This document shows positions 29,224-53,678 of a DNA stretch of 55,957 nucleotides, in pieces. The DNA lies in assembly GCF_000568255.1 (NCBI RefSeq), contig NZ_KK037166.1, positions 9,510,124 through 9,566,080 on the forward strand. The letters run 5' to 3'. Origin of the DNA: Kutzneria sp. 744 (lineage in GTDB: Bacteria; Actinomycetota; Actinomycetes; Mycobacteriales; Pseudonocardiaceae). The notes below the pieces were generated by a model, which saw only the letters and a program-made list of their open reading frames with translations, made no database searches and had not been told where the DNA came from. Every line of letters starts with the position of its first letter. Position 1 is the stretch's first letter. A program made the translations under genes and the position numbers.

Positions 29224-30471
29224 GTGTTCCCCCGAAGACTGTCGTTCCTGGGGCCACGTTCCGCAGCGGTGGTGTCACTGGTCGTACTGGCCGTGACGGC
29301 TGCCGCCTGCGGAACGCCCGTGCCCGCCGTGAAAACCGGCACCGGTGTCACCGACAAGACGATCAGACTGGGCGTGCTCAGCGATCTGTCGGGACCTTTC
29401 GGCCCGCTGGGCGAGGCGGTGGTGCAGGGCAACCAGCTCTACATCGACAAGCTGAACGCCGCGGGCGGTGTGTGCGGCCGCAAGATCGAACTGGACGTGC
29501 AGGACACCGGCTTCAACACCGACAAGGCCGTGCAGCTCTACTTCAAGCAGGAACCCACCGTGCTGGGCCTGCTCCAGGTCGTGGGCAGCGACATCACCAG
29601 CCGGATCACCCCGGACATGCTCCAGCAGCAGGTGATGGCCGCGCCCACGTCCTGGTCGAGCGACCTGCTCGGCAACCCCTACATGGTCGTGGTCGGCGCC
29701 ACCTACGACCTCGACGTGATCAACAGCTTCGACTTCCTCGTGCGGCAGGACAAACTGCACAAGGGCGACGTCATCGGGCACATCTACAACGACGACCCCG
29801 AGTACGGCGGCAACGCGTTGCAGGGCAGCCAGTTCGTCGCCGACAAGCTGGGCCTGACCCTCAAGGCCATCGAGGTCCCGTCGACCAAGAAGGACTTCTC
29901 CGCCGAGATCGGCCAGCTCAAGGCGGCCGGGGCCAAGGCCGTCGCGATCAGCACCTACCCGCAGCAGACCGCCGTCGCCGTCGGCACGGCCGCCCAGGCC
30001 GGCCTGACGGTGCCGTTCCTGGTCTCCAACCCCGGCTTCGACCCGTCCGTGCTGGCCAGCCCGGCCGGGCCGGCCTTCCAGCAGCTGGTGCTCGTGTCCT
30101 CGTCGGTCGCCCCGTTCGGTGCCAAACTGCCGGCCGCCGAGGACCTGGCCACGGCCTACAAGGCCAAGTACCCCAACGGAAAGCCGTCGATGGCCGTGAA
30201 CTACGGCTACGTCGTGGGCATCGGCTACAGCGCCATCCTCAAGCGCGCCTGCGCCGAGGGGGACCTGACCAGGGCCGGCGTGCAGAAGGCCTTCCACGAG
30301 CTGACCGGAGTGGACACCAGCGGCCTCACCGCGCCGCTGCTGTTCTCCTCCTCGAACTACCCGTCCAGCCGGCAGTCCTTCGTGCTGCGCCCCAACCCGG
30401 ACACCCCCGGCGGCCTGGACATCGTGGACCCGTTGAAGGAATCGGACCTGGTCCGCCAGCGGATAGGCTAG
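29224..30471 (+). CDS. Orphan branched-chain amino acid-type ABC substrate-binding lipoprotein
   Basis: A 415-residue Peripla_BP_6 protein. The signal sequence ends at LAVTAAAC (lipobox, Cys about residue 29). The body has the type I binding-protein pattern IRLGVLSDLSGPFGPLGEAV, QGNQLYIDKLNAAGGVCGRKIE and GAKAVAISTYPQQTA. Leu/Ile/Val or another small amphipathic ligand is plausible. No permease or ATPase is beside it, so it is an orphan. The IS630 element inserted exactly at the TA of its TAG stop codon; the IS supplies the following G, so the protein is unchanged. Its probable terminator (33808-33832) now lies 3.3 kb away on the other side of the element. Confidence 0.9.
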   Translation: MFPRRLSFLGPRSAAVVSLVVLAVTAAACGTPVPAVKTGTGVTDKTIRLGVLSDLSGPFGPLGEAVVQGNQLYIDKLNAAGGVCGRKIELDVQDTGFNTDKAVQLYFKQEPTVLGLLQVVGSDITSRITPDMLQQQVMAAPTSWSSDLLGNPYMVVVGATYDLDVINSFDFLVRQDKLHKGDVIGHIYNDDPEYGGNALQGSQFVADKLGLTLKAIEVPSTKKDFSAEIGQLKAAGAKAVAISTYPQQTAVAVGTAAQAGLTVPFLVSNPGFDPSVLASPAGPAFQQLVLVSSSVAPFGAKLPAAEDLATAYKAKYPNGKPSMAVNYGYVVGIGYSAILKRACAEGDLTRAGVQKAFHELTGVDTSGLTAPLLFSSSNYPSSRQSFVLRPNPDTPGGLDIVDPLKESDLVRQRIG

Positions 30472-31634: not shown

Positions 31635-33068
31635 GTGAATACGGGTGTGCTGTGGCCGACGGTCGAGGAGGCCGAGGCGCGGGTACTGCGGATCCAGACC
31701 AAGCTGCATCAGTGGGCGATCGATGGTCCTGGTCGCCGGTTCGACGACGTGTTCAATTTGGTGTGTGACCCGGCTGTTCTCGTTGTGGCGTGGACGCGGG
31801 TCAGGGGCAACAAGGGTAAGCGGTCGGCGGGGGTGGATGGTGTCCGTCCGGACGCCGTGTTCGCCGCCGAGGAGTGGTTCCTGCCCACCTTGAGGCGAGA
31901 TCTCAGGGAGCGGCGGTTCGACCCGATGCCCGTGCGGGAGCGGATGATCCCCAAGCCGGGCAGCGCGAATCTGCGTCGCTTGGGTATCCCGACCGCGCGG
32001 GACCGCACCGTGCAGGCGGCTCTGAAGCTGGTACTGGAGCCGATCTTCGAGGCGGACTTCCAACCGTGTTCCTACGGTTTCCGTCCTCGGCGCCGGGCCC
32101 AGGATGCGATCGCGGAGATCCACCAGTTCACGTCCCGCTCGTATGAGTGGGTCCTGGAAGGGGACATCGAGGCGTGCTTCGACATGATCGACCACCCGGC
32201 CCTGATGGACCGGGTGCGTGGTCGGGTCGGGGACAAACGTGTTCTGGCTCTGGTGAAGGCGTTCCTGCATGCGGGCGTCCTCAGCGAGGACGGCGTGGTC
32301 AGGAACACCAGTACCGGCACACCCCAAGGCGGGATCCTGTCTCCGTTGCTGGCCAACATCGCCCTGTCAGTCCTGGACGAGCATTTCGCCCGGGCATGGG
32401 CGGCCAGCGGCACCTCGTATCGGCGGTTCGTGGCGCGCCGCAAGGGGTCGGCCACCTATCGGATCGTTCGCTACGCGGACGATTTCGTGGTTCTGGTGTC
32501 CGGGTCGAAGCGGCATGCCGAAGACCTCCGGGAGGTGGTGGCCGGACTGTTGGCCCCGATGGGCCTGCGGTTGTCGGCAGCCAAGACGAGGGTCTGTCAC
32601 ATCGATGAGGGCTTCGACTTCCTCGGGTTCCGCATCCAGCGGAAACGGAAGCGGGGCACGGACAAGCGCGTGGTCTACACCTACCCGTCGAAGAAGGCGC
32701 TGGCCTCGATCGTCGGGCGGGTCCGCGCGCTGACCCGCAGGTCGTCGCATCCAACACTTGCCGCCCTGCTGCGCCAACTCAACTTGGTGCTGCGGGGTTG
32801 GTGCGTCTACTTCCGTCATGGTGTGTCGAAGGCGACCTTCCACTACCTCGATGATTACGCCTGGCATCGGGTAGTGCGGTGGATTCGTAAGCGGCACAAC
32901 AAAACGAAGTGGGCCGTCCTCATGCGCCGTTACCTTCCGGGGTGGCGACCGACGGAGGACGAGGTGACGTTGTTCCAGCCCCAGACGGTGACGGTCAGCC
33001 GTTACCGATACCGGGCGGCCAACATCCCTACACCCTGGGCAGTCATAACGCCAGAACCAGCAAAGTGA
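31635..33068 (+). CDS. ltrA: Group II intron reverse transcriptase/maturase
   Basis: A 477-residue intron-encoded protein. The GTG at 31635 is used because AGGAG (31623-31627) precedes it; the frame is open further upstream through ribozyme sequence. RT domains include KRSAGVDGVRPD (RT1), RRLGIPTARDRTVQAALKLV (RT2), YGFRPRRRAQDAI (RT2a), LEGDIEACFDMIDH (RT3), GTPQGGILSPLLANIAL (RT4), and the catalytic YADDFVVL (RT5). A maturase X/GIIM domain follows (LLRQLNLVLRGWCVYFRHGV, RWIRKRHNKTKW). I see no HNH endonuclease domain, so mobility would rely on replication-fork or single-strand priming. The ORF is intact. Confidence 0.96.
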   Translation: MNTGVLWPTVEEAEARVLRIQTKLHQWAIDGPGRRFDDVFNLVCDPAVLVVAWTRVRGNKGKRSAGVDGVRPDAVFAAEEWFLPTLRRDLRERRFDPMPVRERMIPKPGSANLRRLGIPTARDRTVQAALKLVLEPIFEADFQPCSYGFRPRRRAQDAIAEIHQFTSRSYEWVLEGDIEACFDMIDHPALMDRVRGRVGDKRVLALVKAFLHAGVLSEDGVVRNTSTGTPQGGILSPLLANIALSVLDEHFARAWAASGTSYRRFVARRKGSATYRIVRYADDFVVLVSGSKRHAEDLREVVAGLLAPMGLRLSAAKTRVCHIDEGFDFLGFRIQRKRKRGTDKRVVYTYPSKKALASIVGRVRALTRRSSHPTLAALLRQLNLVLRGWCVYFRHGVSKATFHYLDDYAWHRVVRWIRKRHNKTKWAVLMRRYLPGWRPTEDEVTLFQPQTVTVSRYRYRAANIPTPWAVITPEPAK

Positions 33069-48745: not shown

Positions 48746-48876
48746 GGCGGGCGTCCGTGCGGAGCGGATTGCCCGATTGTCCTAGGGAGGGTGTTTAGTA
48801 GGGAATGTCCCGATGCTGGGCGAGGGGTCGGCTGGGCATGCTCCGGCGGCACAGATCCGAGCAGAGGGGCTTGTTG

Positions 48877-50166
48877 ATGAGACGCATCGGGACCGTCCTG
48901 GCGGTCATGGCGTTGGCGCCGGGGGGAGTCGCGTTCGCCGCGACGACGGCGGACACGACGCTGGTCAGCGTCACCGTGGACGGCACGCCGGCGTCGGGGA
49001 TGAGCGGGCGGCCGGCGATCTCGACGGACGGGCGGTTCGTGGCCTTCTCGTCGTCGGCGAAGAACCTGGTGCGGGGTGACGGCAACGGGGTGTCGGACAT
49101 CTTCGTGCGGGACCGGCAGAACGGCGCCACCACCCGGGTCAGCGTGAGCACGGCCGGCGTCGAGGGCGACGGGGCCAGCGGCAACCCGGTGATCTCGGGC
49201 GACGGCCGGTACGTGGTGTTCGAGTCCCTGGCGACGAACCTGGTGCCGGGTGACACGAACGGGGTGCAGGACATCTTCGAACGCGACCTGGTGACCGGGA
49301 AGACGACCCGCGTCAGCGGCGACCCGTGGACGCAGGCCAACGGCGAGAGCGCGGATCCGGCGATCTCGCAGGACGGGCAGACGATCGTGTACGACTCGCT
49401 GGCCAGCAACCTGGCCAGCGGGGACACCAACGGCGTGTCGGACATCTTCCAGTGGAAGCGGGGGGACCTGTTCAACTACCGGATCAACCTCGACGACTAC
49501 TTCCGCGAGGCGGACGGGCCGAGCTGGGCGCCCACGATCTCGGCCAACGGGGACACGGTGGCGTTCAACTCGGACGCCGACAACCTGGACCTGCGGGCGG
49601 ACACCAACCACTCGACGGACGTCTTCGTGCGCCAGCCGGGGGACACCCGCCTGGTCAGCCGGGGCAGCGACGGCGCGCTGGGCAACGGCACGAGCCGCGG
49701 CGCGAGGCTCTCGGCCGACGGCCGGCACATCGTGTTCGAGTCGTACGCGACGAACCTGGTGCCGGGCGACACGAACAACCGCTCGGACCTGTTCACGGCC
49801 AAGGTGGAGTACTGGGACACGATCACCCGCGTGAACGTGGACCCGACCGGTGCGGTGGTGGGCGGTTACACCGGCGGCCGGACGGCGATCTCGGGCGACG
49901 GCCGCTACGTCGCCTTCTCGTCGCCCCAGGACTTCCTCGTGCCGGGTGACAGCAACGGCCACTGGGACGTGGTGGTCCGCGACACCGTGGCCGGCACGAC
50001 GGCGCTGGCCAGCGTGGCCACCAACGGCACCCAGGGCGACAGCGACTCCCTGGAGCCGTCGATCACGCCGGACGGCCGGCAGCTGGCCTTCAAGACCTAC
50101 GCCACCACGTTCGCGCCGGACACCCCGCAGCCCTCGGCCAACACGTTCGTCCGCGACCTGGGCTGA
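48877..50166 (+). CDS. Secreted TolB/PD40-type seven-repeat beta-propeller protein
   Basis: A 429-residue exported protein with a signal peptide (MRRIGTVLAVMALAPGGVAF). The mature part contains seven copies of a blade motif of the form S.P.IS.DGR.VAF.S.A.NLV.GD.NG..DIF.RD, at roughly 50-65 residue spacing. TolB-like propellers mediate protein or polymer binding; the family is common on actinobacterial surfaces but its role is unknown. Convergent with the large NTPase-PBP gene, with only two bases between their stop codons. Confidence 0.88.
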   Translation: MRRIGTVLAVMALAPGGVAFAATTADTTLVSVTVDGTPASGMSGRPAISTDGRFVAFSSSAKNLVRGDGNGVSDIFVRDRQNGATTRVSVSTAGVEGDGASGNPVISGDGRYVVFESLATNLVPGDTNGVQDIFERDLVTGKTTRVSGDPWTQANGESADPAISQDGQTIVYDSLASNLASGDTNGVSDIFQWKRGDLFNYRINLDDYFREADGPSWAPTISANGDTVAFNSDADNLDLRADTNHSTDVFVRQPGDTRLVSRGSDGALGNGTSRGARLSADGRHIVFESYATNLVPGDTNNRSDLFTAKVEYWDTITRVNVDPTGAVVGGYTGGRTAISGDGRYVAFSSPQDFLVPGDSNGHWDVVVRDTVAGTTALASVATNGTQGDSDSLEPSITPDGRQLAFKTYATTFAPDTPQPSANTFVRDLG

Positions 50167-50168
50167 GC

Positions 50169-53100
50169 TCAGCAGGTGGTGTCGGGGTCGAGCGGCGTGC
50201 CGGACGGCCACACCAGGCCCTCCTGCGTCGCGGACCCGTCCGGATGGATCTGCATGATGGGCATGGCCTTGTCGACGGGGTCGCTGCCCCCGGTGTTGGG
50301 GAACGCGATGTAGCCGGTGGCCCCGCCGACCGGGTTCTTGCACTGCAACTGCATCACGAACGGCGCGACCGTGTTCACCGTGGTGACGTCCTTCGCCCTG
50401 CGCGTGGCGACGGCCGCGGTGAACACGGCGTCGTGCTCGGACATGGCCTGCCCGTCGTCGAGGTCGGCGGCGGGGAAGCCGTTGTCCGCAAACGCTTTCG
50501 CGAAGGCGTCGTAGTTGCGCACGTACGCGGAGCCGGCCGGGAAGGCCCGCCACTGGCCGCCGTGCGCGATGGCCGTGTAGTAGACGTGGATGTCCTTGGA
50601 CAGGGCCAGGTCCTTGACGCCGACCAGGCTGGAGGCGTCGTCGCCGGTGACGATGTCCATCGGACCCAGCCCGCACGTGCCGCCGTCGGCCAGCGCCTGG
50701 AGGAAGTACTTCAGATCGCTGCCACGGCCGGCGAAGTAGACCACGTCGGGCTTGTCCGCGCAGATGTTGCTGTACTTCTGCGCGAACACGTTGGTCATGT
50801 AGTCGGCCCGGGTCTGCCCGGTCAGCTGCGGCGGCGCCTTGTACGGCGACTGGTACTCGGGCTTCATCGCCGCGGTGAAGGCCTTGGTCAGCGTCCGCGT
50901 GTAGCTGTCGGCGGGATTGAGGTCCTGCACCAACAAGGTGTGCTGGTAGCCCCGCTGCCTGAGGTAGCCGACACCGGCCCGAACCTCCTCGCTGTTGGTG
51001 GGGGAGACGCGGAAGAAGTTGTCGATGGGATGCCCGGCCAGGTCCTGGTTCATGTCGTCGGCGGTCACCTGCGAGCCGATCACCGTGATGTCGGCGGCGG
51101 ACAGGGACGCGGCGGCGGCGCGGGTGCTGTCCAGGCTCTGCCCGAGCCCGACCACGGCGACGATGTGCTCCTCGGCCCTGGCCTTGACGATCGCCGCCAC
51201 GGCGGCCTCCTGCTGGTCGCCGTTGCTGCCGAAGTTGGCCAGTAGCAAGCGGATCCGCGGCGTGGTGCCGAACGCGGCCGAGGAGTTGTCGGCCCGCCAC
51301 AGCGCGGCCGCCGCGCCCTCGATGTCGTGCCGGGTGACCTGGACCAGCAGGCTGTCGGCGTCCGGATCGGGCGTCATGTCCTCCAGCAGCACGACCGTGG
51401 CGTACGCGCCGGTCCGCGGCGGGTTCAGTCCGGCCACCTTCTGTTCGAGGTCGAAGAGCGGATCGTGGTCACGGAATGCCGTGGCATCCAGGTTCAGGCC
51501 GACGCACCCGGCGGCACCGCCGGCATCGGTCAGGCCCCGGCCGCAGGTCTGCCACGGGTGCAAGGAGATCAGGGCGGCGGCCACGGCGGCGACGATGCCC
51601 ACGGCGACGTAGGGGACAGCGCGGCGGAACCGGCTGCGCGGGGTCAGCAGCCACGGTGCGCTCGGGGCGATGACTCCCCGTTCCACCAACGGTTCCGCGG
51701 CCCGGCGGGCGGCGTTGAGCAGCGCGTTGACGTCGCCCTCGCGTGACTGCGGCGGCAGCTCCTGGCGGTAGGCGTGCTCGACGATGTCCCGCTCCGGCGA
51801 CGGCACCGTGAACAGGTTGGTGGTCAACCAGTTGGCGACCACCAGCCGGCTGACCACGTTGCGCACCACCTGGCTCCGGTCGCGATCCCGGTTGGCCTGC
51901 TTGACCAACGTGTCGAACAGCTGCGTGACGGTCCGGCCCAGCGGCTGCGCGTCGGGCGCGCGGCAGACCATCTCCATGCGGTCCACCCAGTCCCGGTGCG
52001 GTTCGTTGTCGAACGCCTTCGCGAAGTCGTCGACCACGGCGACAACGCGCCCCAGCGCCAGCTGGCAGTAGGCACGGCGGGCCCGGTCGGTGCCGAAGTC
52101 GTTGAGCAGCACCGAGAACTGCTCCTCGTACGACGGCAGGCCCGAGGTCGGATCGCGATGGGTCAACGCCAGCACCAGATTGCCGGCGATCCACGGCTGC
52201 AGCACGGCCGGATCGGCGGTGGCGCTGCCGTCCCGCCTTTCCACCACCCACAGGGCATTGCGCAGCTCGGTCAGGATCCGGCCGACGTTGCGGTGGTCGA
52301 CCCGGGTCGCCGCCGACGGCAGCAGCCACGGCGCGGTGGCGAACGGGGCGGCGCTGACGAACTCCTCGATGCCGAGATCCGGGGCGTGCCGCGCTAGGCC
52401 GAGGTCGGTGAGTCGTTGCTGCCACGGGTGATCACCGGGATCGAGCACGTCCCGGGCGCCGGGCGTGAGCGTGGCCTTCTCCAACAGCGGCCGCACACTC
52501 TTCACCGCCGCCGGCAACCCGCCGGTGGCCCGCAAGGCCAGCAGCGCCGCCGGGGAATCCTCTGGCACGCCAAGCATATGCGCCGTCTCGCGCAGGGTCA
52601 GCGCCTCCAGCAGCACGGGATAGTAGGGGCTGGTCGGCTCGGCGGCCCAGTCGTCGTAGTCGGCGTGGCGGCAGGACTGCACGGTCCGTGCCTTGACCGC
52701 CGCCGCGGACAGCCACGGCGGCCGCCAATCCGGTTCCCAGCCGGGATTCCAGCGCCCACTGGTCGCCATCACCAGCAGCGGGTCGTGGGCGTTGCGGTCG
52801 TGGGCGAGCACCTGCTCGCGGGCGGTGGTCAGGTCGCGCAGGAAGCGTTCGCCGTCGGGATGGTCCACGTTGTCCAGCAGCAGCAACCAGTTGTGCCAGT
52901 GCCGGCGCCGGCTCGGCCGGTCGCACCGGCACCGGCTGCCCAGATCGGCCCGGGACAGCCGTTCCTGGCTCTCCCGCACATCGGCCAGGAACGCGGCCAT
53001 CAGCCACACGTTCCGGCCGGCGGCCGGCATCCGGTTGAGGTCGAGCAGCGCGTCGTACGGGTCCTCGGCACGTGGGTCGGGATGCTCGCCGTGCCACCGG

Positions 53101-53678
53101 ATCGCCCGCCGCAGCGACTCCCGGCCGGCCGCGTTCACCAGCTCGGGCAGGGCGGTGCTCAGCACCGCGCCGACGTTCTTGTCGATCATGTCGGCGTGCA
53201 CGGCGGTGTCCACGACGCCGCGCAGCAGCGCGCCCAGGGCCGGCCGCTGCCGCCCCGTGTACTGGGCGAACTCGGCCCGCAGCTTCTCCTTGGCCTTCTT
53301 GTGGTGCAGGTCGGTCAGCTGGGTGCGCACCGCGATCAGCCCGGTGACCAGGCGGGCGAACCGCGGCCGTCCCCGTTGCGGCCACTTGCGGCTGAGGCTG
53401 TAAGCCAGCTGTGTCAGCACTTCCATCGTGTCGGCCGGGGTGGTGCGCTGGAAGTCGTAGTCGGTGTGTACCACGTCGTTGTCGCAGCTGCGGCCGATGG
53501 AGCGCAGCGTGAAGCTCTTGCCGGCCCCGGTCGGGCCGAGCAGCACCACGACCGGCTGCCGGCGGCGCGGGCCGCCGGCGTCGCGGTTCCACAGCAGCCG
53601 GGCGACCAGCGCCGTGGCCGGGGGCAGGCGTCTTTCGTCGGGCACGGGTCCCTCCGAACGGGAGGTTTTCTTTCCCAT
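50169..53678 (-). CDS. P-loop NTPase / transmembrane / periplasmic-binding-protein fusion
   Basis: A 1,169-residue single-chain protein. Cytoplasmic part: Walker A VVVLLGPTGAGKSFTLRSIG (residues about 43-62), Walker B NWLLLLDNVDHPDGE near 264-277, and a sensor-1-like LLVMATSGRW near 301, followed by about 370 helical residues, a STAND- or AAA-like layout. One membrane helix, VPYVAVGIVAAVAAALISL, lies at about 690-708. The outer part (about 745-1160) is a type I periplasmic-binding fold of the branched-chain amino acid receptor class: DITVIGSQVTADDMNQDLAG, FFRVSPTNSEEVRAGVGYLR, PDVVYFAGRGSDLKYFLQAL. I infer a receptor that senses a solute outside and controls an NTPase inside. No transporter genes adjoin it. 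Confidence 0.85.
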   Translation of the reverse strand: MGKKTSRSEGPVPDERRLPPATALVARLLWNRDAGGPRRRQPVVVLLGPTGAGKSFTLRSIGRSCDNDVVHTDYDFQRTTPADTMEVLTQLAYSLSRKWPQRGRPRFARLVTGLIAVRTQLTDLHHKKAKEKLRAEFAQYTGRQRPALGALLRGVVDTAVHADMIDKNVGAVLSTALPELVNAAGRESLRRAIRWHGEHPDPRAEDPYDALLDLNRMPAAGRNVWLMAAFLADVRESQERLSRADLGSRCRCDRPSRRRHWHNWLLLLDNVDHPDGERFLRDLTTAREQVLAHDRNAHDPLLVMATSGRWNPGWEPDWRPPWLSAAAVKARTVQSCRHADYDDWAAEPTSPYYPVLLEALTLRETAHMLGVPEDSPAALLALRATGGLPAAVKSVRPLLEKATLTPGARDVLDPGDHPWQQRLTDLGLARHAPDLGIEEFVSAAPFATAPWLLPSAATRVDHRNVGRILTELRNALWVVERRDGSATADPAVLQPWIAGNLVLALTHRDPTSGLPSYEEQFSVLLNDFGTDRARRAYCQLALGRVVAVVDDFAKAFDNEPHRDWVDRMEMVCRAPDAQPLGRTVTQLFDTLVKQANRDRDRSQVVRNVVSRLVVANWLTTNLFTVPSPERDIVEHAYRQELPPQSREGDVNALLNAARRAAEPLVERGVIAPSAPWLLTPRSRFRRAVPYVAVGIVAAVAAALISLHPWQTCGRGLTDAGGAAGCVGLNLDATAFRDHDPLFDLEQKVAGLNPPRTGAYATVVLLEDMTPDPDADSLLVQVTRHDIEGAAAALWRADNSSAAFGTTPRIRLLLANFGSNGDQQEAAVAAIVKARAEEHIVAVVGLGQSLDSTRAAAASLSAADITVIGSQVTADDMNQDLAGHPIDNFFRVSPTNSEEVRAGVGYLRQRGYQHTLLVQDLNPADSYTRTLTKAFTAAMKPEYQSPYKAPPQLTGQTRADYMTNVFAQKYSNICADKPDVVYFAGRGSDLKYFLQALADGGTCGLGPMDIVTGDDASSLVGVKDLALSKDIHVYYTAIAHGGQWRAFPAGSAYVRNYDAFAKAFADNGFPAADLDDGQAMSEHDAVFTAAVATRRAKDVTTVNTVAPFVMQLQCKNPVGGATGYIAFPNTGGSDPVDKAMPIMQIHPDGSATQEGLVWPSGTPLDPDTTC

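Follow-up and report, generated by a model that had tools for sequence, protein, structure and literature searches.

The DNA analysed here is a stretch of 55,957 nucleotides from Kutzneria sp. 744 (contig NZ_KK037166.1, positions 9,510,124 to 9,566,080; hereafter the window), which carries on its minus strand an open reading frame from 53678 to 50169 (1169 codons, no internal stop). We consider it fairly probable that this gene encodes a one-piece receptor, in which an outer LivK-like sensor is connected by one transmembrane helix to an inner STAND-type switch acting as a ligand-driven hub. This type of receptor is real and conserved, and it is new as a variant: a STAND-type switch is associated with an extracellular LivK-like sensor, in one chain here and mostly in two genes elsewhere (hereafter split pairs). 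The initial annotation had described an NTPase, a helix and an outer domain in one piece, a layout confirmed by the open frame, the P-loop, the Walker B motif, the single helix and the exported domain. It had also proposed a signalling role. We keep this role as that of a receptor whose outside ligand would act on the inside NTPase, a reading drawn from the linkage of the two halves (80/80 loci, see below), from their co-divergence and from swaps of the outer half.

Domain organization of the receptor

All features of the gene are on the minus strand, and residues are numbered throughout in the 1169-residue frame from the ATG at 53678. The protein probably begins at the GTG at 53645 instead (gene 50169 to 53645; 1158 amino acids), because a ribosome-binding-site-like GGAGG (53651 to 53655) is found 5 nt ahead of this codon and because the longest frame of the orthologue in genome G006 begins at the same VPDERR sequence. 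Hydropathy reveals a single transmembrane helix (approximately residues 688-706; 51561 to 51617), preceded by an Arg-rich stretch and followed by the extracellular type I binding-protein domain (LivK-like; residues 712-1169; 50169 to 51545). The receptor is predicted to be a single-pass surface protein with its N-terminus inside. Two observations on a 47-row alignment fit this orientation. The outer part has four cysteines that are kept in 39, 47, 46 and 46 of the 47 rows, no cysteine of the inner part reaching 60%. A helix was called in 43 rows, 35 of which show a higher net positive charge before it than after it.

The inner NTPase half

The nucleotide-binding motifs were read from the same 47 rows. 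The Walker A motif GPTGAGKS comprises residues 48-55 (53514 to 53537). Its residues G48 and G53 are conserved in 46 rows, and the position K54 is occupied by Lys (36 rows), Arg (7), Ala (3) or a gap (1). The replacement of the P-loop Lys by Ala concerns the NTPases of the split pairs L082, L086 and L174, and for this reason some family members may be devoid of nucleotide hydrolysis or binding. The Walker B motif LLLLDN (residues 265-270; 52869 to 52886) includes D269, an hhhhD-type Asp conserved in all rows and followed by Asn (36 rows), Asp (6), His (3), Lys (1) or Glu (1); the catalytic Glu of AAA+ proteins is absent from the window protein. An ATS-like sensor strand is present. The STAND-type GxP motif TGGLP (residues 385-389; 52512 to 52526) contains G387, conserved in 47/47 rows, and P389, conserved in 40/47, and it aligns with the GxP of NB-ARC proteins from the same genome.

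A full-length hhalign comparison with NB-ARC aligned the P-loop alone, and the segment from Walker B to GxP was picked after this result. In a comparison with 29 NB-ARC proteins from the window's own genome, the segment scored 39.1, against a maximum of 23.4 for 150 column shuffles and 13.6 for the reversal. In an earlier run of this segment, 1 of 40 shuffles scored 132.9, a value that is unexplained; when the run was repeated on modelled columns, none of 150 shuffles reached the score of the real segment. In the window protein, the Pfam hits were limited to P-loop families below threshold (AAA_22, nSTAND_NTPase5, Zeta_toxin, AAA_16 and others), and AAA_16 matches 32 of the 44 rows of alignment A6 (best E 2.4e-7). 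At E 1 or better, Pfam gave P-loop families alone and thus no recognizable effector domain in this protein, an undescribed effector being possible.

The structural model (pLDDT 75, pTM 0.80) displays a long helical stretch ahead of Walker B (approximately residues 84-244). Its best matches are plant NLRs (scores 11.9 to 11.4), the archaeal Walker-type ATPase 2qen (10.9) and CED-4 (10.6), followed by ORC2 (10.2), Dark (10.1), Avs3 (10.0), Cdc6 (9.9) and the maltose-regulator entry 8bob (9.4), which we take to be MalT. The alignment with NLRs and CED-4 extends over about 300 residues. Foldseek returned nothing below E 1e-3 for the model, and neither half gave a useful sequence match to solved structures. 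The initial annotation had called for a class placement of residues 1-690. We assign them with moderate confidence to the STAND type, because of the motifs and the profile comparison and, less firmly, of the structure match. Passages of PMC6468293 list as STAND features a core of nucleotide-binding, helical and winged-helix domains, a GxP in the helical domain, an arm, a sensor and, usually, an effector at one end. As a separate observation, genome G000 (11.6 Mb) contains 68 NB-ARC matches at E 0.001.

The outer binding domain

The initial annotation had assigned a type I binding fold to the outer domain. The model is clearly a two-lobe type I binding protein, although the Pfam family ANF_receptor matches below its curated cut-off (E 3e-4). 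Three residues of LivJ (Ser79, Thr102 and Glu226) are presumably those that hold the head group of the amino-acid ligand. In a weak hhalign alignment with LivJ, Ser79 is opposite Ser848 (51135 to 51137), Thr102 opposite Thr872 (51063 to 51065) and Tyr202 opposite Arg985 (50724 to 50726). Over the 105 rows of an outer-domain alignment, which contains all architectures, the corresponding columns hold Ser in 99 rows, Thr or Ser in 102 and Arg in 104; the column equivalent to Glu226 is acidic in 74. That the cleft varies so little points to a ligand class shared by the family, which could be assayed directly. The initial annotation had attributed to the same binding family a free lipoprotein at 29224-30471 (plus strand). 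This binding lipoprotein is real (Peripla_BP_6, E 4e-51), but a close kinship was not borne out, as hhalign found no useful alignment with the outer domain.

Distribution and split gene pairs

A match was found in 17 of 60 relatives. The 19 loci recovered are three fusions of the window's genus, 12 split pairs in which an NTPase gene precedes a gene for a transmembrane binding protein, one single chain with a P-loop (L043), two single chains without it (L041, L042) and one fragment at a contig start. The upstream gene matches the window NTPase by BLAST in nine of the 12 split pairs, and its assignment rests on Pfam AAA hits and on the P-loop alignment in the other three (L037, L038 and L044). 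A scan of one genome per species with two short patterns gave 223 relatives, of which the best 80, named loci of one subtype, were retained; they include Streptomyces, Nocardia, Amycolatopsis, Actinokineospora and Microtetraspora. In all of these best 80, the NTPase gene is directly upstream on the same strand, being short and near a contig start in two (L194, L211). The two genes overlap or abut in 34 pairs (23 by exactly 4 nt), are separated by at most 50 nt in 41 and by at most 150 nt in four, and are further apart in one; outside the named records, gaps and gene calls derive from codon-usage-based calling and not from annotation.

At E 1e-10, the profile of the transmembrane binding protein has matches in 94 of 394 genomes of the class, the weakest of them being perhaps ordinary binding proteins, and the NTPase profile has matches in 31. 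A sample of the phylum gave matches at E 1e-20 in 6 of 296 genomes, all six in the window's class (the number of sampled genomes outside this class is not stated). The genome sets possibly overlap (L226 and L089 are on contigs of the same length). Plasmid records contain a few distant relatives, with no gene names under the matches, and the single-protein scan of genome contigs gave no relative.

The distances of the two halves correlate in a mirror-tree analysis of 47 chosen loci (r 0.858; none of 2000 permutations as high), a correlation that linkage alone could produce. In the outer-domain tree, the three proteins of the window's genus form one clade (99) amid the split pairs L030, L031 and L170, the last one (Actinokineospora, Pseudonocardiaceae) being the nearest named relative. 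Because the fused proteins are grouped in this way, the fusion of the window's genus is, judging from the tree, derived and due to a single event. The loci L133, L143, L147, L151 and L167 were excluded from this tree, and L038 and L039 from the NTPase alignment A2. L139 and L144 are the same protein, counted twice in the tree, in the 105-row alignment and in the survey of 88 loci described below; a second tree was built without this doubled row.

The locus L043 (7852-11619 in genome G022) encodes one chain of 1255 amino acids. The NTPase profile matches its residues 8-658 (E 1.3e-64), with the P-loop GPGGSGKT at 38; the outer domain begins at 709, and a weakly hydrophobic stretch at 714 was noted between the two parts. 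Its outer domain is localized, on a long branch and by a quick method, in the half of the tree that contains the P-loop-less, TIR and DUF4062 forms. Since L043 falls apart from the clade of the window's genus, the one-chain forms with a P-loop would have at least two origins, or would have been kept on two lines.

Beside the split pairs, no conserved third gene was detected among 35 groups (one of which holds 76 loci, the comparison being made between groups only). Three gene clusters recur in at least 4 of the 35 groups, at scattered places, and by eye they belong to common kinds (ABC, short-chain dehydrogenase and TetR-like).

Internal partners of the outer module

A survey was made of the 88 strongest matches to the profile of the transmembrane binding protein, without G000, G055 and the second match in G306. 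The weaker matches (E above 8.3e-28), many of which have ordinary free binding-protein frames, are outside this survey. The 88 loci are distributed among 27 split pairs, 54 single chains and seven cases of the transmembrane binding-protein part alone. The 54 single chains include 40 whose N-terminal part is recognized by the NTPase profile or by a separate profile, A4, which is homologous to the NTPase by profile comparison (probability 99.4, E 4e-21) and has lost the P-loop.

The N-terminal part of the other 14 single chains is a TIR plus a kinase (L095, L099), a kinase (L156), a TIR (L155, L158), or a DUF4062 or DUF4062-like domain (L136, L137, L157, L161, L162 and L164; label from Pfam for L137 and L157 and by eye for the other four), three chains being without label (L114, L133 and L143). 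The Lys, HxD and DFG motifs are retained in the kinases fused to the outer module. Six one-chain proteins were also matched at odd places by a loose P-loop pattern, and we judged these matches to be due to chance. Pairing, fusions and swapping taken together are most simply explained by a receptor half that is connected to various internal outputs. Two further observations concern these chains: the loci L155, L158, L095, L099 and L156 are receptors with immune-type outputs, and some of the single chains having a P-loop-less copy of the NTPase (several of L115-L130 and L138-L169) contain one or two extra hydrophobic helices inside.

Proposed mechanism and alternative explanations

In the one-piece receptor that we propose, a small molecule with an amino-acid-like head group would bind the outer cleft, and closure or dimerisation of the outer domain would be passed through the single helix. 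The STAND core would be freed from a closed ADP form, adopt an ATP form and assemble as a membrane-bound hub, which would recruit or activate a partner encoded elsewhere. The output is the least certain step, because the analysis found neither an effector domain nor a conserved third gene. STAND proteins are mainly known as sensors of the cytosol that carry repeat domains. If the proposal is true, a STAND core joined to an extracellular small-molecule receptor lets outside chemistry trigger an NLR-like switch, and the passage of a signal across a single helix to such a core could be studied directly on one polypeptide. The swap of the receptor half among STAND, TIR and kinase outputs would show that bacterial immune-type effectors can be controlled from the cell surface. 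More tentatively, these proteins may form an actinomycete family of modular surface receptors, in which a LivK-like module with a nearly invariant cleft Arg has innate-immunity switches (STAND NTPase, TIR, TIR plus kinase, kinase, DUF4062) as its partners, in cis or in trans. In such a family, the window protein would be a one-chain surface NLR, with its ligand outside and a resistosome-like assembly inside.

The same mechanics might also serve a nutrient sensor that controls metabolism or development on extracellular amino acids, and not conflict, a possible reading suggested by the LivK-like fold and the equivalents of Ser79 and Thr102. In the same phylum, PMC6069109, on GlnH-GlnX-PknG, describes an extracellular solute-binding protein proposed to signal, via a membrane protein, to a cytosolic kinase; that system differs by its separate lipoprotein, membrane protein and kinase and by its effector. 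However, the receptor is patchy in the genus (3/7 genomes, the syntenic slot of two others being devoid of it), no gene cluster is kept beside the pair across groups, and relatives have TIR partners. A role as regulator of the adjacent ABC-2 exporter, whose substrate would be sensed, is quite improbable. The exporter gene pair is directly upstream on the same strand, ends 92 bp ahead of the receptor ATG and is syntenic in 5/7 genomes, but the exporter is present in G001 and G005, where the receptor is missing, and ABC-type genes are near the split pairs in just 7 of the 35 groups, at scattered places.

An AAA+ machine, ORC/Cdc6-like or other, for which the membrane part is a mere anchor is an unlikely identity for the NTPase. 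The STAND type is favoured by the GxP motif, by the match of the segment with NB-ARC proteins and by the Walker B Asp, mostly followed by Asn and not by Glu; the conservation of the outer cleft residues would not be expected of a mere anchor. A degenerate relic of a transport system without receptor function is hardly credible. The type I binding fold and the degraded P-loop of some relatives go in this direction, whereas the long frames are open in three species, with dN/dS values that range from 0.25 to 0.71 over the three domains and from 0.73 to 0.80 over the linker and helix (rough estimates, the genes being so GC-rich), the cleft residues are conserved and the pairing is constant in the best 80 of 223 relatives.

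Comparison with known systems

The receptor shares with the STAND NTPases (NB-ARC/NACHT: plant NLRs, CED-4, Apaf-1, Avs3, MalT) the P-loop, a Walker B Asp mostly without Glu, the sensor-like ATS and the GxP. It differs by its sensor, an extracellular binding protein across a helix instead of LRR, WD40 or TPR repeats, by the long helical stretch before Walker B and by the lack of a recognized effector domain. Contrary to LivJ and LivK, the outer domain is anchored by its own helix, is joined to an NTPase and has an Arg at the position of Tyr202. The ectodomains of class C G-protein-coupled receptors and of natriuretic peptide receptors have this fold too, and they use it to bind ligands at the surface and signal across the membrane. 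The likeness is one of fold and logic only; the receptor contains neither the seven-helix domain nor the cyclase.

The nearest precedent that we met is represented by the caspase proteins of EACC1, an actinobacterial two-gene conflict system, for which passages of Kaur et al. 2020 (PMC7159879) mention a transmembrane helix and an extracellular periplasmic binding protein (PBP) domain among the variable C-terminal parts. The likeness is known from the description of these PBP domains. Here an NTPase is paired with the transmembrane PBP and there is no caspase: at E 1 or better, Pfam gave no caspase or cyclase hit at the receptor locus. In the accessible part of the 2021 sequel on EACC1 (PMC8195603), the words periplasmic, peripla and PBP are absent. 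Among the matches listed, no open-access paper deals with a type I binding protein that has a STAND NTPase as its partner (subscription papers and preprints being outside the search). A known anti-phage system was also considered and rejected, as PADLOC-DB 2023 matched just the P-loop stretch of mads_8 (E 0.0036).

Genomic context in the genus

Full-length single-chain orthologues are present in G002 (81% identity) and G006 (68%), with the same flanking genes as in the window. The initial annotation had considered that the fusion might be rare and caused by an assembly join. The exact fusion is indeed rare (three congeneric genomes and, at a distance, L043), but it does not result from an assembly artefact, because G002 and G006 carry the same single chain at the corresponding position of the chromosome. 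The identity of the window protein with that of G006 is 56% in the outer domain and 76% in the NTPase core, and with that of G002 82% and 78%, respectively; a faster-changing sensor domain is apparent in one of these two comparisons.

The flanks are common to five of the seven genomes of the genus, three of which have the fused receptor gene and one propeller. The slot contains three tandem propeller paralogues without receptor in G005 (L281 5273-9155), and a sigma-70-like factor with a SnoaL-like tail plus a carboxymuconolactone-decarboxylase-family (CMD) protein in G001 (L282 4262-5634). G004 has a split relative at another place and G003 a distant match. Since the content of the slot differs among congeners, the receptor gene is an accessory gene at a variable spot. 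In the window, a PD40 beta-propeller gene (48805-50166, plus strand) converges on the receptor gene with a gap of 2 nt; the propeller is conserved at the corresponding place in G002 and G006. The partnership suggested for this propeller has to be abandoned, given the three propellers without receptor in G005 and the lack of a conserved third gene beside the split pairs elsewhere. The statement that no permease is nearby must be restricted: no Liv-type permease is found among the genes scanned (part of the window), but the ABC-2 exporter pair is just upstream. The window also contains a group II intron-type reverse transcriptase/maturase at 31635-33068 (plus strand).

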